Shown here: positions 9,532-22,884 of the stretch, piece by piece | Layout: each line of letters starts with the position of its first letter | Numbering within the stretch: position 1 is the first letter of the stretch | From: an uncultured candidatus Porisulfidus sp. | GTDB taxonomy: Bacteria > Pseudomonadota > Gammaproteobacteria > Poriferisulfidales > Poriferisulfidaceae | Direction: 5' to 3' | Assembly (NCBI GenBank): GCA_958431155.1 | Contig: OY288106.1 | Span: 1-64,000 of the forward strand | Length of the DNA stretch: 64,000 nucleotides | Made by a program: the position numbers and the translations under genes | The notes under the pieces: model-generated | Database searches by the model: none | Seen by the model: the letters and a program-made list of their open reading frames with translations, nothing else | What the model was told of the DNA's origin: nothing

Positions 9532-9551
9532 GGGCGGAGCTTGCTCCGCCC
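9532..9551. terminator. Perfect hairpin between the 79-residue gene and argB
   Basis: GGGCGGAGC-TT-GCTCCGCCC is a perfect 20-base palindrome, 8 bases after one stop codon and 16 before the opposite one. Its position between convergent genes suggests a bidirectional terminator, although the U tract is poor on both strands. Confidence 0.5.
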
Positions 9552-9567
9552 ACCCCATTTGAAACGA

Positions 9568-14234: not shown

Positions 14235-15917
14235 TCATTCGTAATCCTCGTACAGGGAGATCAGGAAGCTCACTAGTGGCTGGATGTCGTTCGGCGTGAT
14301 TTCGACTTTCCGGAGTTCGGGGTCTGCATTCCGGATCGTCCCGTTCCGGCTGCTTGCGGAGGCTGCGATATAGAACGCAACCGAGGCGTGCAGGTCGCTG
14401 ATCTGGCCGTTGTGCATGTAGGGGGCCGAATGGCCCAGATCCCTCAGCGTCGGAGTCTTGAACGCCGCGACTGATCGTCCGAGAGCCTGATCCGCGGTTT
14501 TGCAACCCGTCCCGTTTTGGCAGAACGAACGGTGCAAGGGCTCCTGAGCGTTCGGATAATCCTCGTTCAGGAAGATGTTCCAGGCACCCAGGTCTGTCGC
14601 CATCGGGTCGGATTCCGACGCGAGCCTGCGGAACATGCCCCGTCGGTCCGGATGCGTGGCAGTCGCGGGCAGGTAGACATCCGCCTGTTCGTTGCGCGGC
14701 CCGACCGCCGGGATCAGCAGTTTCCAGAATGAGCCCTGCCCATGGATGGCTTCATATTCCACCTGGGTCACGCCGATATTGTGAAAACCGAAATCCGTGA
14801 AATGCGGGGCCGCATGACAGGATCCGCAGTTGCCGGCACCACGTCCGGGGGCAGGTTCCCGGTTGAAGAAGATCCTCAATCCCTGCAGCTCAATTTCGCC
14901 GAACCGGTAGGGCTGGTCATGGAATCGGAATCCACCGTCCTCCGTCGCAGGGTTGCGCTCCACGAATCGCAGTTCGCCGCTTTCATCAAGCGAGTCGATC
15001 CGCGCCAGCAGCCGGTCGCTGTAGTCCTCGTCCGACTCGTCTTCGTCCGGGCGGGCAGGCAGGCCGTTGATCGACAGGAACAGGTCGTAAGGGGAAAGGA
15101 TGTCCGCTTCTGCGGAGAATTTCAGGTCATCGAGGTAGTGTCCGATCAGATCGGCTATGCCAACCAGAATCTCGTCGCAGGAGCTTTCCGAGACGTTAAT
15201 GCGTCGCTCTGTCGCAATTCGATGTTCTTCGGGCAGTGCCTCCCCGGATGCCGAGACACCGGAGAACACTTCGGAGTAAGCCAGTCCGCTGAACTCTCCC
15301 GCCAGTTCGCCCGTCCCGTCGTCTTCCCGGATGATTTCGCAGGCATGGCGGGCGGCGAGAGCGCTCTCGTCGGGCAGCCAGCCCAGGTTACGCCCCGTGA
15401 GCGTGGCGATGACCAACTCCCGGGTCGAGGCGAATTCCCCGTCGAGGTGCAGAAGGAAAGGATCTCTCGGCGACAAGGAGCCCACCAGCACCGGTGAATT
15501 CCGCACGGATACGGATTGCCCGTCGTCCCGCTCGGGCAGGGGGCTCCGAGAGGCAAAGTCGTTGTAGGCACGCATGCCGAGTTCCTTCTGCCCGACATGC
15601 TCGTCCACCAGGTGGCAGGTCCGGCAGTTGTAGGACGATCCTTCGAACGGGCCTGGTGCGAACGGGATTTGGTAGGGCGGCAGCCCGAAGAACCGGTACG
15701 TCTTCTCCAGTTTTGGATCGCCCTTGTCAAGAGACTCGTTGATGCCGCCGCCGCGGGACACGAAATCATAAAAGCGCTGGGCGAAGCGGGTTTCCAGGAA
15801 TAACCGTTCCCCGTGGAAGACTTCGGCAGTTGGAGGCTCCGCTTCTTCGCTGGCCTGAGTGAGGCCGCCAAGGCTCGCGGCGGCCACCACAGCGAGCAGG
15901 AGAGCCCGAAAGTTCAT
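14235..15917 (-). CDS. Exported di-haem cytochrome c peroxidase / MauG-like protein
   Basis: From ATG 15917 the 560-residue precursor has a signal peptide (RALLLAVVAAASLGGLTQA). Two c-haem sites follow: CRTCH at residues 98-102 and CGSCH at 364-368. The C-terminal part has RSVAAFKTPTLRDLGHSAPY followed by MHNGQISDLHASVAFY, the conserved block of bacterial CcpA/MauG-type di-haem enzymes. The haem sites are about 266 residues apart, wider than in typical CcpA, because of a large acidic insertion between them (a PDEDESDEDYSDRLL stretch included). Members reduce peroxide or use high-valent iron to oxidise a partner protein. It is the last gene of the cupin / unknown / di-haem cluster and is separated from the middle gene by a 13-pair hairpin. 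An in-frame TTG four codons earlier is less likely as the start. Confidence 0.88.
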   Translation of the reverse strand: MNFRALLLAVVAAASLGGLTQASEEAEPPTAEVFHGERLFLETRFAQRFYDFVSRGGGINESLDKGDPKLEKTYRFFGLPPYQIPFAPGPFEGSSYNCRTCHLVDEHVGQKELGMRAYNDFASRSPLPERDDGQSVSVRNSPVLVGSLSPRDPFLLHLDGEFASTRELVIATLTGRNLGWLPDESALAARHACEIIREDDGTGELAGEFSGLAYSEVFSGVSASGEALPEEHRIATERRINVSESSCDEILVGIADLIGHYLDDLKFSAEADILSPYDLFLSINGLPARPDEDESDEDYSDRLLARIDSLDESGELRFVERNPATEDGGFRFHDQPYRFGEIELQGLRIFFNREPAPGRGAGNCGSCHAAPHFTDFGFHNIGVTQVEYEAIHGQGSFWKLLIPAVGPRNEQADVYLPATATHPDRRGMFRRLASESDPMATDLGAWNIFLNEDYPNAQEPLHRSFCQNGTGCKTADQALGRSVAAFKTPTLRDLGHSAPYMHNGQISDLHASVAFYIAASASSRNGTIRNADPELRKVEITPNDIQPLVSFLISLYEDYE

Positions 15918-15946
15918 GGGAGGGATCAAGAACAGTGTGGGGCATG

Positions 15947-15979
15947 CCGGGGGCCTCGATTTTTAGTCGAGGCCCCCGG
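15947..15979 (-). other. Intercistronic 13-bp hairpin
   Basis: CCGGGGGCCTCGA (15947-15959) is perfectly complementary to TCGAGGCCCCCGG (15967-15979), with a 7-base loop. It lies between the 484-residue gene and the di-haem gene on their coding strand. No U tract follows on that strand. It therefore looks like an mRNA stabiliser or partial attenuator that could make the first gene more abundant than the second. Confidence 0.8.
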
Positions 15980-15996
15980 GTGAGTGGTGGAGCGTT

Positions 15997-17451
15997 CTAT
16001 TGAGCAGGGGTCACCGGTTTTTCCACAGCGGGATACTTCAGGGTGACTTCACCGTCCAGATCCATGGCGTGCGGGTTCTCTTCACCCTTTTCCGTCAGGT
16101 AGGGATCCGTGTAGACGCCGTACTCGCCCGGCTCCAGCGTGTAGGTGACTTCCTCTTGGCCGTGCCCGGCATTCGCCAGGTATTTCGTTGGGTTTTCCCA
16201 GCTCTGGCCGTCCAGGTTCGCGTAGAACTTGATGTCAACCAGCACGCCGTCACACAGCGGCGTGACCTCCTCGTAATTCGTTGGCCAGCCGGCCGCGCCC
16301 GTGGTCTTCGGGTAGTTGCTCCAGTCGCCGCCTTTCAGGGGGCAGGCTCCGCCACCGCCGAACGCTGCGCGGTTGGGATGATGAACGCCGTAGACAGGTA
16401 GGCCCTTTGCCGCCGCCGTGGTCCCGTTCTCCAGATGGAACCGGGGCTCGTACGTCACCTCGGTCTTGACTTCCTGGCCGGTTTTCTTGACGTGCTCGTA
16501 GTAGTCGCCGACAGGACGGACGTACTGGAAGTCCCGGTTGTCCTGGTTGTCGAACACCGCGGTGATGAACAGGTAGGGCTCGTTGAAGAAGGGCCGTTCG
16601 ATCAGGTAGAACTCCGCATTCGTCTTGCTGATATCCACAGACTGCCAGTCGACCGAGTTTTCATCCTCGCCGCCGACATTGATCCAGGCCCGGGCATCCG
16701 GGAACAGGTCGACGCGCAAGACTTTCGTATACAGCTCGTTGACATCGAGGCCGGCGCGTTTGCCGAGCGGGCCGATCTGGTTTGCTCCAGGCTGGCTGAA
16801 CGAGTAGTCCACCGCCTTCCTCGCGTAGGGGTACTGGTTCGCCGACATCGTGCAGTAGAAATGCGGCAGGTCGATGGCTACGTGATCGTCATATTTGCCC
16901 TTGTACTTGGGGTGATGCAAAGGCACGTCGATGAAGTTCAGGTGCCCGTCTTCCGTCACTCTCTGGTGGGGGTGCTTGTACCCGCCCCAGCTTTCTTCCG
17001 GGATGTAACTGGCGTAGTCATTTTCGATCGCCGCCAGGTTGGCCTCGTCAAACAGGTCGGCCCCTTCCGGCAGTCCCTGGGCATCCTTCTTGCGGTATTC
17101 CCGGATCATCCCGTTGTCCTGCACCCGCCACAAACCATGCTTGCCTTCTCCGATCATCGTCATGGTCTGCTCCACGACGTTCACGAAACGGTAGGTGTAG
17201 TTCGTGTTCATGTATCCGGAGAAAACCGGAAGGTGGGGAATGCTTGAGTGCGTCGTCTTGGGGCGGCCTTCGCCGACCAGTGTTTTCTGCCCGTCATCCT
17301 CCCCGATAGCCTGATCGCTCGTGTAGTAGTAGGGGTCGCCCTTCGTCAGATCCTTGATATGACCGGCGTCGTCCCCGGCGTTCAGGGGGGCGGATGCAAT
17401 CAGCAGCAGTGCGCCAGCGAAGCCGAGCACCGTTGGGTTTGTTTGTTTCAT
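15997..17451 (-). CDS. Exported protein of unknown function (484 residues)
   Basis: ATG 17451 has an AGGAGG site. The N-terminus (MKQTNPTVLGFAGALLLIAS) is a signal peptide, probably cut after PLNA. The mature protein is aromatic-rich and has no membrane segment or haem motif. Recognisable stretches include GDPYYYTSDQ, VFSGYMNTNYTYRF, HFYCTMSANQYPYARKAVDY and GGDWSNYPKTTGAAGWP. It has three cysteines and about eight tryptophans. The last third looks like an immunoglobulin-like beta domain (LEPGEYGVYTDPYL; LDGEVTLKYP). I do not recognise the family. It sits between a secreted cupin and a MauG/CcpA-type di-haem protein, with a stable hairpin before the latter. A substrate or electron-transfer partner role for the di-haem enzyme is inference from context only. 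Confidence 0.85.
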   Translation of the reverse strand: MKQTNPTVLGFAGALLLIASAPLNAGDDAGHIKDLTKGDPYYYTSDQAIGEDDGQKTLVGEGRPKTTHSSIPHLPVFSGYMNTNYTYRFVNVVEQTMTMIGEGKHGLWRVQDNGMIREYRKKDAQGLPEGADLFDEANLAAIENDYASYIPEESWGGYKHPHQRVTEDGHLNFIDVPLHHPKYKGKYDDHVAIDLPHFYCTMSANQYPYARKAVDYSFSQPGANQIGPLGKRAGLDVNELYTKVLRVDLFPDARAWINVGGEDENSVDWQSVDISKTNAEFYLIERPFFNEPYLFITAVFDNQDNRDFQYVRPVGDYYEHVKKTGQEVKTEVTYEPRFHLENGTTAAAKGLPVYGVHHPNRAAFGGGGACPLKGGDWSNYPKTTGAAGWPTNYEEVTPLCDGVLVDIKFYANLDGQSWENPTKYLANAGHGQEEVTYTLEPGEYGVYTDPYLTEKGEENPHAMDLDGEVTLKYPAVEKPVTPAQ

Positions 17452-17492
17452 GGTTTAACCTCCTGCTTGATTTGATTCGTTCAGGGGGGAAT

Positions 17493-17930
17493 TCAAAGTT
17501 CCCCTTTGGCTCTCTGTCCGCAGAAGAAGGCGAGGCCCGACGAATCCGACGTGAACGTGATCTTCGCGCCCTTGTCGAAATAAATGATGTCGCCCGCGGT
17601 TGCATGGAACGTCTCGCCGCCCTCTTCGGCCAGAGTCATTTCACCGGAAACGATGATTTTGACTTCGTTGTAGGTATAGGTGTACACCAGCGGATTGCTT
17701 TTTGCCAGACCGAACAGGCCGCAGGTCATCGGCGCGTTTTCGTCCGAAGTGGTGATGTCGGACAGGGCGGCTTCAATGCCTTCGATGCCCATGGAGGTCA
17801 GTTCCATGTCTGCGGCGCCTTTGTGGGTAGTCATTTTCGCCCCGCCGTGGCTGTCGGCGATAGCGGCGCCTGAGCAGGCCAGCATGGCCGAGACGAGCAG
17901 GACGAGAGGGGTTTTGTTTCGTGATTGCAT
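17493..17930 (-). CDS. Exported small cupin-domain protein (EutQ-like)
   Basis: ATG 17930 follows an AGGAG site; earlier in-frame codons lack one. The 145-residue product has a signal peptide (MQSRNKTPLVLLVSAMLACS). Cleavage is probably after AIA, although the Cys at 19 could also be read as a weak lipobox. The mature part is one cupin barrel: VKIIVSGEMTLAEEGGETFH and GDIIYFDKGAKITFTSDSSG resemble EutQ/DUF861-type cupins rather than metal-rich dioxygenases. Few histidines are placed to bind metal. First gene of the three-gene exported cluster, 41 bases before the next. Its role may be sensing or binding a small molecule in the periplasm. Confidence 0.8.
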   Translation of the reverse strand: MQSRNKTPLVLLVSAMLACSGAAIADSHGGAKMTTHKGAADMELTSMGIEGIEAALSDITTSDENAPMTCGLFGLAKSNPLVYTYTYNEVKIIVSGEMTLAEEGGETFHATAGDIIYFDKGAKITFTSDSSGLAFFCGQRAKGEL

Positions 17931-18030
17931 GGGGTTTCTCCTAGGATTTGTTTGGATTATGATGCTTGGTTTGTGTCTGTCAAGTTTTGTTAGTAGTTCC
18001 CGCCAAATTTTCTGGCGTGGATCCCCAACG

Positions 18031-20386: not shown

Positions 20387-20979
20387 CAATCGAGACCCAT
20401 CAGTTTCTGCAAATCTGCGGCGATGGCCGTCGGAGCCAGGGGCGGAGTGAAGACGCCGGCAAGCCGCGCCTCGGGGTCGACCAGCCAGGCGCTGCCGCTG
20501 TGGTCGACAAGATAGCCGGTGGCGAGCTTCTGTTTGGAATGAAAGGCGCCGAGTTGCTTTGCAAAACCTGCAATCGCCTTGGCATCGCCGGTTACTCCCA
20601 GGGTAGCGGGGTGGAAATGGCCTACGTACCGGGTCAGGGCTTCCGGAGTGTCGCGTTCGGGATCGACGGAGATGAACACGATCCGCACGGGCACCTCGCC
20701 CAGGGTTTGCAAGGCGGTGGTCAACTGCTGCATGGAGGGCGAGCAGATGTCCGGGCAGTTCGAATAGCCGAAAAACAGCAGACTCCAGTGGCCGTGGAAA
20801 TCAGCCGGTTCCAAGGCTTCGCCGTCGTGGCGCGTCAATGAGAAGGCAGGCAAAGGCCGGGCTTGGTCCCCGAACACGGTGGCCGCCTCGTATTCTTCCA
20901 TCTCGCCTGCTTTCCACCACTGGAAGCCTACGATCCCGGCGAGAACAAGGATCGACAGGAGAAGAAGAGAGCGCTTCAA
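20386..20979 (-). CDS. SCO1/SenC-family copper chaperone
   Basis: The 197-residue protein has an N-terminal membrane anchor (LLLLSILVLAGIVGFQWW) and a thioredoxin-like domain. FFGYSNCPDICSPSM carries the CxxxC copper-binding pair; the third ligand is probably the histidine of GYLVDHSGSAWLVDP. Members insert copper into the CuA centre of cytochrome oxidase or act as thiol-disulfide reductases. No oxidase genes are adjacent. It precedes psd with a one-base overlap. Confidence 0.93.
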   Translation of the reverse strand: MKRSLLLLSILVLAGIVGFQWWKAGEMEEYEAATVFGDQARPLPAFSLTRHDGEALEPADFHGHWSLLFFGYSNCPDICSPSMQQLTTALQTLGEVPVRIVFISVDPERDTPEALTRYVGHFHPATLGVTGDAKAIAGFAKQLGAFHSKQKLATGYLVDHSGSAWLVDPEARLAGVFTPPLAPTAIAADLQKLMGLD

Positions 20980-21012
20980 GAATCTTCCTGAAAAAACGGA
21001 GCGCCCAGTTTA

Positions 21013-22884
21013 TCAGTCAAGGTGCCAGACTAGCCCTGCGCTGAAGTTCCGGTGTGGAGCCGCACACCCGATGACCTCTTGGTAGGATTCGTCGAGAAGG
21101 TTTCGGGCCTCGAACAGGAGTTCCAGTTTTGGGGTCAGGCCATAACGTGTGGACAGGTTGATCAGGTAGTAGTTGCCAAGCGTTTTTCGTACCGCGGGAA
21201 AGCTTGAGAAATCGTCGTCCAGAAGTCCCCGCACTGTCGTGAAATCCAGCCGCGAGTGCCACGAATCCGAGTGATGCGCCAATGCCAGCCGGTATTGGTG
21301 CCGGGGTCGGCGGATCTCTCTACGGTCGGTCGCGCCCCCCGAATCTGGTTCGGTCGCATGCAGGTAGGCGTAGTGGGCAGAGACGGTCCAGTCCGGATGA
21401 GGGTCGAATTTCAGCTCGAGTTCCCCTCCCCAGCGTTCGGAGCGCCCGGCTTCGTTGGTGGCGGTAGGCAGCTTGGGGCCGTCGGAACCGTCCGGGTCGA
21501 AATACCCGTTGATTTTGTCGCTCAGGCGCTGGGTGAAGATGCTGAGGCTGATCCGGCAGCAGGCTCCGTTGGGGTTGTGTTCAATGCCGACCTCGGTATT
21601 CCGGGACCGTTCCGGTTGCAGATCGGGGTTGCCCTGGAAGGTATCCGGGAAATAGCCATAACGTTCGGTCAGGGTTGGGTTGGCGATGCCGCTGCCGCTG
21701 GCCAGGTAGATCCGGGTCGGCCTCCCGGGGAATTGGTAGGCGAAGGAGACGCGCCAGGTGTCGGCATCCTGGAAATCATGGTTCTTGTCGCGCCGGAGCG
21801 ACAGGTCGACCGTGGCCTGGGGGTCGGGCTGCCAGTTCAGTGTCGTGAACACGCTGGAGGAAATGGAATTCAGGGGTTCAATACCCTTCCGGGTGTAGCG
21901 TTCCCGGCTCCATTCCAGGCCGGCTCCGAGGGTGCAGGAGTGACCGAAAAGGCAATCCTCGAAGTCGCGCCAGACCAGTTCATCGGCCTGGATGCGGCGC
22001 CCCTTGCTTTCGGTGGGGAAGCGATCCTGCCGTTGATTCATCGTCTGCAGGTAGCTGAGGTTTGCCTGGTGCTTGAAGGGACCGGTCCGCGTATGCAGGC
22101 TGGTGTTTAGATAGGTTCGACGGTTCCTTGAGGTGTACGGGGCGTCCGAAGGCCCGCCTTCACCTTCATCGTAGTCCGCATTTGCATGTGTACGACGGGC
22201 GGAGAAGCGGAAGTCGGTGTCGGCCGAAGGGCGCCATTGTCCGCCCCACTGCAGGGTGTTGTTCCGGTATCCGTCCCGCTCCGAACCTGTCAGCGAAATG
22301 TTCTCGCCCTGCGTCTGGAAGTGATGCGCGCTGGCCTGCATGCTGAAGCCCTCGGACTCGGTGGCAACCTGGAGAGTGGTCTCATGGCGCCGGTTCGAGC
22401 CGGACTTTTGGGTCAAACTGGAGTTGCCTCCCTTTCGGCTGATCAGGTTGATGATGCCGGAGATGGCGTCGCTCCCCCACAGGGCACTCGGTGCGCCCCG
22501 CAGGACCTCGATGCGCTCGATCCCGGCGATGCTCAGGTGGGCGAAGTCCACAACCCCGCTGGTCGGGTCGCTCAGCTCGATGTTGTCCAGCAGGATGCGC
22601 GTGTGATTGGATTCGCCTCCGCGCATCCTCACTGCTGTCAGCGTGCCGCTGCCACCACTCTGGCTGATCGAGATCCCAGGGATTTCTCGCAGTACGTCCG
22701 AAATAGTGGCTCCCGTCCCCCGCCAGTCGTCCAAGTCGATGACGGTGACGCTGCTGCCGACGGCGTGCAGGGGCTGGGGGATGCGCGAGGCGGTGATGAT
22801 GATGGTTTCGATACCTTGCGCGGCGGGCAGGGAGGGGCACCAGAGCATCGAGAATGCGAGCAGTAGCAGGTTCTTCTTGGACAT
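21013..22884 (-). CDS. btuB: TonB-dependent outer-membrane receptor, BtuB-like (cobalamin)
   Basis: The 623-residue precursor has a signal peptide (NLLLLAFSMLWCPSLPAAQG), a TonB box (ETIIITASR), and a plug domain with SDVLREIPGISISQSGGSG, VRMRGGESNHTRILLDNIEL and IERIEVLRGAPSALWGSDAI. A 22-stranded barrel follows, ending in an aromatic (AGLVWHLD). The plug resembles BtuB, and the leader is a cobalamin riboswitch, which makes vitamin B12 or a corrinoid the probable ligand. The ATP-dependent importer BtuCDF is not in the window. ATG 22884 has a GGAG site 8 bases upstream. Confidence 0.93.
   Translation of the reverse strand: MSKKNLLLLAFSMLWCPSLPAAQGIETIIITASRIPQPLHAVGSSVTVIDLDDWRGTGATISDVLREIPGISISQSGGSGTLTAVRMRGGESNHTRILLDNIELSDPTSGVVDFAHLSIAGIERIEVLRGAPSALWGSDAISGIINLISRKGGNSSLTQKSGSNRRHETTLQVATESEGFSMQASAHHFQTQGENISLTGSERDGYRNNTLQWGGQWRPSADTDFRFSARRTHANADYDEGEGGPSDAPYTSRNRRTYLNTSLHTRTGPFKHQANLSYLQTMNQRQDRFPTESKGRRIQADELVWRDFEDCLFGHSCTLGAGLEWSRERYTRKGIEPLNSISSSVFTTLNWQPDPQATVDLSLRRDKNHDFQDADTWRVSFAYQFPGRPTRIYLASGSGIANPTLTERYGYFPDTFQGNPDLQPERSRNTEVGIEHNPNGACCRISLSIFTQRLSDKINGYFDPDGSDGPKLPTATNEAGRSERWGGELELKFDPHPDWTVSAHYAYLHATEPDSGGATDRREIRRPRHQYRLALAHHSDSWHSRLDFTTVRGLLDDDFSSFPAVRKTLGNYYLINLSTRYGLTPKLELLFEARNLLDESYQEVIGCAAPHRNFSAGLVWHLD

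Follow-up and report, generated by a model that had tools for sequence, protein, structure and literature searches.

The 64,000-nucleotide stretch analysed here (the window), from contig OY288106.1 of an uncultured 'Candidatus Porisulfidus' sp. whose genome is a single contig of 1.59 Mb, carries three consecutive minus-strand genes for a EutQ-like cupin, a 484-residue protein for which we use the working name X484, and a MauG-like di-haem c protein (Table 1). The distribution of these genes across relatives, together with the X484 tree, indicates that the cupin and X484 form the core of the cluster and that the di-haem protein is an addition specific to one gammaproteobacterial clade. As a possible, tentative explanation, we propose that the core is a periplasmic one-carbon enzyme with a EutQ-like cupin, beside which the di-haem protein was recruited in that clade. 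We found no paper on this gene cluster in the literature.

X484 is paired more widely with the cupin than with the di-haem protein

All three genes lie in the tandem arrangement described by the first-pass annotation, and hydrophobic, signal-peptide-like N-termini, judged by eye, were present on each product; the cupin, X484 and the di-haem protein therefore look to be exported. For the di-haem gene, an ATG start at 15917 was better than a TTG at 15929. The coding sequence of all three genes is kept in relatives, which excludes chance.

X484 is very rare, with about 15 species found. One scan with exact peptide patterns, which detects close relatives only, returned 14 loci in 84,980 species genomes. 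Profile searches covering about 930 genomes recovered X484 from 2 of the 271 gammaproteobacterial genera searched, and from one genome among 296 in the Paracoccus family, one among 148 in the Algicola family and two among 116 in an Oceanospirillaceae-like family; IMG/VR yielded no relatives. Four of the six genomes of the window genus encode it (the two without are 95% and 76% complete), and it is absent from all 14 other genomes of the order. The closest relatives, 91-92% identical, belong to 'Candidatus Porisulfidus' metagenome-assembled genomes (MAGs) and other gammaproteobacteria, one labelled as from sponge, and identity between classes is about 60%. In Paracoccus sp. TOH the gene is on one plasmid.

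Phylogenetic analysis of X484 by maximum likelihood grouped the ten rows that have a di-haem gene nearby into a single gammaproteobacterial clade (99/97); Paracoccus adjoined this clade and the Algicola and Oceanospirillaceae-like sequences lay apart, as placed by a midpoint root only. The di-haem gene was near X484 in every one of the ten rows, including locus L016 after its rearrangement, and the di-haem tree was broadly congruent with the X484 tree inside the clade. Cupin and X484, on the other hand, were adjacent both in Gammaproteobacteria and at three loci from Paracoccus. The Paracoccus loci have the cupin and no di-haem neighbour, and the Algicola and Oceanospirillaceae-like loci have neither, giving six X484 loci in three lineages without a nearby di-haem gene. 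Searches of five such genomes and one plasmid for a di-haem ortholog returned short generic matches only. The cupin is thus the more widely conserved partner of X484. A GAF-LuxR regulator stands beside cupin-X484 in six loci (L009-L011 and all three from Paracoccus), and at L011 (316-1268) two cupin genes lie in tandem ahead of X484.

X484 is highly conserved and matches no described family

The first-pass annotation could not place X484, and this held in wider searches: Pfam, NCBIfam and PDB gave no match to it even at E 10, PDB also when searched by profile, so that the known-family match that would have spoken against a partnership with the di-haem protein was not encountered. As far as these sequence searches went, X484 belongs to an undescribed family. 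Alignment of 16 sequences from two classes (A1) nevertheless showed 163 of about 450 positions to be invariant, among them H68, H73, H105, H180, H357 and H358, C200, C370 and C400, and six Trp. An AlphaFold2 (AF2) model of X484 from 13 sequences was too poor to use (predicted local distance difference test, pLDDT, 53; predicted template modelling score, pTM, 0.57), as was that of the di-haem protein from nine (pLDDT 46). Foldseek with the AF2 models returned nothing at E<=0.001, and VIA-align Z scores of up to 4.7 (MexA, START/PR-10 folds) are not meaningful and rule out no fold family.

These results bear on whether X484 is an enzyme at all. An alternative in which X484 is no enzyme but has a binding, storage or structural role in the periplasm, with the cupin binding alongside it, is in our judgement improbable: the lack of a family or fold match is compatible with such a role, as is the weak resemblance of the poor model to ligand-binding folds of the START/PR-10 kind (Z below 5, not meaningful), but the 163 invariant positions, including six His and three Cys, would be more usual in a catalytic or metal site than in a binding protein.

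The copy at L017 (8660-8720, a MAG) has a frameshift at about residue 273 that splits X484 into two open reading frames, by sequencing error or decay.

The cupin probably lacks a classical metal site

The cupin matched Pfam EutQ PF06249 at 37.6 bits (gathering cutoff 21, E 2.4e-9) and cupin_3 PF05899 at 34.9 bits (cutoff 23.5), bearing out its earlier description as a small EutQ-like cupin, and EutQ 2pyt is among its nearest solved structures; its score against the EutQ equivalog NF012001 was 36, against a cutoff of 193. In the family alignment (A3), the canonical His-ligand region has instead conserved Tyr (Y83, Y85, Y87) and Lys (K91), which makes a classical metal-cupin site unlikely. In this replacement of the canonical metal ligands, as in its cupin family, the protein resembles other EutQ-like cupins; unlike them, it is predicted to be exported and is paired with X484 rather than with ethanolamine-utilisation genes.

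The di-haem protein belongs to a long, MauG-like subfamily

The di-haem protein has CxxCH motifs at residues 98 and 364, a spacing of 266, and both are invariant (alignments A2 and A4). Its similarity to MauG (NCBIfam TIGR03791, 48.0 bits against a cutoff of 443.85, E 9.2e-13) and to MbnH (TIGR04039, 39.9 bits against 362.85, E 2.7e-10) is far below both cutoffs and lies in a C-terminal PYMHNG...FY block. MauG Tyr294 is a Tyr axial haem ligand, conserved in MauGs and replaced by Met/His in cytochrome c peroxidases (PMC7567364). By sequence alignment only, Y516 of the di-haem protein falls on MauG chain residue 294, so that a Tyr stands at the MauG axial-ligand position, where bacterial di-haem cytochrome c peroxidases have their Met/His distal ligand. 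Ten divergent relatives all keep Y516 and W180. The protein can thus be called MauG-like, as it was at first, on distant similarity.

A wide haem spacing and a large acidic insert had been singled out as peculiarities of this protein. Both are real (residues 190-345 hold 38 D/E against 13 K/R), but the spacing is not peculiar to the cluster. A search of 369 gammaproteobacterial genomes recovered five full-length relatives (L111-L115), 41-45% identical, with haem spacings of 245-267 and with W180 and Y516 conserved; the wide spacing is therefore a feature of a long di-haem subfamily. In contrast to the cluster, these five genes stand alone, with no shared neighbours, no cupin in their loci and no X484 in their genomes, and they lack an insert containing RFFGLPPYQIPF that is present in the X484-linked proteins.

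X484 as a possible, clade-restricted substrate of the di-haem protein

The first-pass annotation had proposed X484 as a dedicated substrate for the di-haem protein, looked to repeated co-occurrence for support, and named homologues mostly without a di-haem neighbour as the observation that would speak against it. Co-occurrence proved complete in the one clade (10 of 10 rows) and did not extend beyond it, and the opposing pattern was seen in part, in the six loci of three lineages. With X484 occurring without the di-haem protein in those lineages, and the di-haem protein without X484 in five genomes, the claim is not generally true. Because the two distributions only partly overlap, the inference is weakened, and X484 could be a substrate in the shared clade only.

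Within X484, Y216 is the sole aromatic residue specific to the di-haem-bearing clade (Phe elsewhere; no Trp is so restricted), and H160 and H162 are also specific to it. These three residues, the linkage retained in all ten rows even at the rearranged L016, the position of Y516 at MauG Tyr294 and the clade-specific insert of the linked di-haem proteins are all consistent with a MauG/MbnH-type modifying enzyme acting on X484 as substrate, at least in this clade. We nonetheless regard this as unlikely: in lineages without the di-haem protein, X484 retains about 60% identity, with all six of the conserved Trp and 20 conserved Tyr still in place, and the di-haem subfamily also occurs alone elsewhere. 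Highly improbable, in our view, is the fuller proposal that X484 founds a new periplasmic one-carbon enzyme family and that a MauG-like protein was recruited in one marine-symbiont clade to build a protein-derived cofactor, with Y216 as the candidate residue. If true, it would add a further MauG-type maturation system to those of methylamine dehydrogenase and MbnP. The di-haem branch offers a natural comparison between X484 that has a MauG-like partner and X484 that lacks one, and so between maturation and mere electron exchange.

A conserved hairpin separates X484 from the di-haem gene

A perfect hairpin lies between X484 and the di-haem gene (Table 1). In five relatives a hairpin is found in the same gap (z -2.6 to -6.9), its position kept and its sequence different, and in L007-L010 it is followed by terminator-like T-tails. 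This conservation speaks against a simple three-gene operon, which we consider doubtful, and argues that the di-haem gene may be transcribed separately from X484 or at a lower level. At L010, a Fur-box-like sequence, AATGATAATCATTATT, lies at about 9540-9566, just upstream of the di-haem ATG, and suggests iron control there.

The same hairpin or terminator, together with the absence of shared neighbours around the standalone full-length relatives, would also fit an independent periplasmic peroxidase-like enzyme that neighbours X484 by inheritance only and is functionally unrelated to it. This explanation appears somewhat unlikely, as linkage has held throughout the clade, even after the L016 rearrangement, and the insert is common to the linked copies and absent from the standalone ones.

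Table 1 Features of the cluster and its surroundings in the window
Feature	Position	Strand	Remarks
Di-haem c protein gene	14238..15917	-	560 aa; last of three tandem genes
13-bp perfect hairpin	15947..15979	-	between X484 and di-haem gene; dG (folding free energy) -29.7 kcal/mol, z -6.5
X484 gene	16000..17451	-	484-aa protein; middle of three tandem genes
Cupin gene	17496..17930	-	EutQ-like, 145 aa; first of three tandem genes
Sigma-70-like promoter, TTGACA-16-CATAAT	17956..17983	-	directly before cupin; 11/12 consensus positions
SCO1/SenC gene	20389-20979	-	2.5 kb upstream of cluster

The promoter before the cupin is a consensus match only; the scan that found it returned three sites, against a mean of 1.3 in shuffled sequences.

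Gene neighbourhoods point to one-carbon metabolism

In L007 and L008, N-methylglutamate (NMG)/sarcosine dehydrogenase-type genes lie directly upstream of the cupin, the trio follows, and after it, on the opposite strand, come amt, mgsABC-like and gmaS-like genes. NMG/sarcosine dehydrogenase genes are also found between X484 and the di-haem gene in L016 and downstream of X484 in L017 and L018, and in Algicola X484 follows frmA-frmB after about 70 bp. Methylated amines or formaldehyde are common to all of these neighbourhoods, which therefore point to one-carbon/methylated-amine metabolism. Paracoccus sulfuroxidans, as a species, has been reported to degrade dimethylformamide (PMC11381386).

For X484 we infer an enzymatic nature, a metal and a one-carbon substrate, and for the di-haem protein its role. 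The core unit would consist of two periplasmic proteins. X484 would most likely be an enzyme of the periplasm, probably dependent on a metal, whose turnover of a methylated compound, or of another one-carbon compound, would release or consume a one-carbon unit (formaldehyde or methylamine). The cupin, without canonical metal ligands, would be an accessory or binding protein. In the one gammaproteobacterial clade, window genome included, a MauG/MbnH-like protein would have been recruited beside the pair, probably as electron acceptor or peroxidase for X484 turnover, or else as an X484 maturation factor, and its transcript would be separate or attenuated. Besides the neighbourhoods, this proposal draws on the adjacency of cupin and X484, the GAF-LuxR regulator shared by six loci, the single di-haem-bearing clade with its broadly congruent di-haem tree, and the insert of the X484-linked di-haem proteins.

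Several observations weigh against this proposal. A search of the window genome found no sarcosine oxidase/NMG dehydrogenase, mgsC ortholog or frmA, so that a one-carbon role through the NMG pathway or frmA was rejected for that genome and the one-carbon link is not demonstrable where the cluster was found. At two of the Paracoccus loci none of the neighbouring genes is clearly a one-carbon gene, neither X484 nor the di-haem protein yielded a fold (AF2 pLDDT 53 and 46) or a structural match, and enzymatic activity of X484 is suggested solely by its strong conservation. X484 is all the same a highly conserved protein, predicted to be exported, for which we found no described family and which accompanies the cupin in two bacterial classes. 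Should it prove to be an enzyme, it would represent an unrecognised one-carbon step in marine bacteria and sponge symbionts, and the cultured hosts Paracoccus and Algicola make its role directly testable.

At the P. sulfuroxidans locus (L013, 593-7379), genes for a NosR-like 4Fe-4S membrane protein and ApbE are divergent from cupin-X484. Further upstream are a periplasmic binding protein and a beta-propeller protein (identified by eye) of the kind seen with pyrroloquinoline quinone alcohol dehydrogenases.

Comparison with known systems

With MauG, which acts in tryptophan tryptophylquinone biogenesis in methylamine dehydrogenase, the di-haem protein shares two CxxCH motifs, the C-terminal PYMHNG...FY block and the Tyr at the axial-ligand position, but it differs in its score (48 bits against 443.85), its length of 560 aa and its haem spacing of 266 residues. 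No subunits of methylamine dehydrogenase were recognised in the open reading frames of the window between 8 and 26 kb, the part of the genome searched for them, or in the relative loci examined, in line with the first-pass annotation. The annotation had also reported no MbnP, and this agrees with the absence of any NCBIfam match to X484 at E<=10 and the low MbnH score. The MbnH/MbnP pair is similar in that a di-haem protein is encoded beside an exported protein of otherwise unknown family; it differs in score (39.9 against 362.85) and in that X484 matches no NCBIfam model and also occurs without a di-haem gene.

The methanethiol oxidase operon, mtoX-SCO1/senC-mauG (PMC5739008), likewise encodes a MauG-like protein together with a periplasmic C1/sulfur enzyme, about 46 kDa in size, whose conserved His include a HisHis pair, and in the window genus a SCO1 gene is nearby. 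However, none of 13 X484 members matched SBP56 in Pfam at E<=10, SCO1 was found close to the cluster in this genus alone, and a cupin is present. The two arrangements are analogous and unrelated.

Neighbouring copper-related gene

The statement that no copper genes are present was not quite right, in view of the SCO1/SenC gene on the same strand upstream of the cluster (Table 1). It was rejected as a cluster member because it is near the cluster only inside the genus, where it stands in a row with a TonB-dependent (BtuB-like) receptor gene (window 20389-22884).

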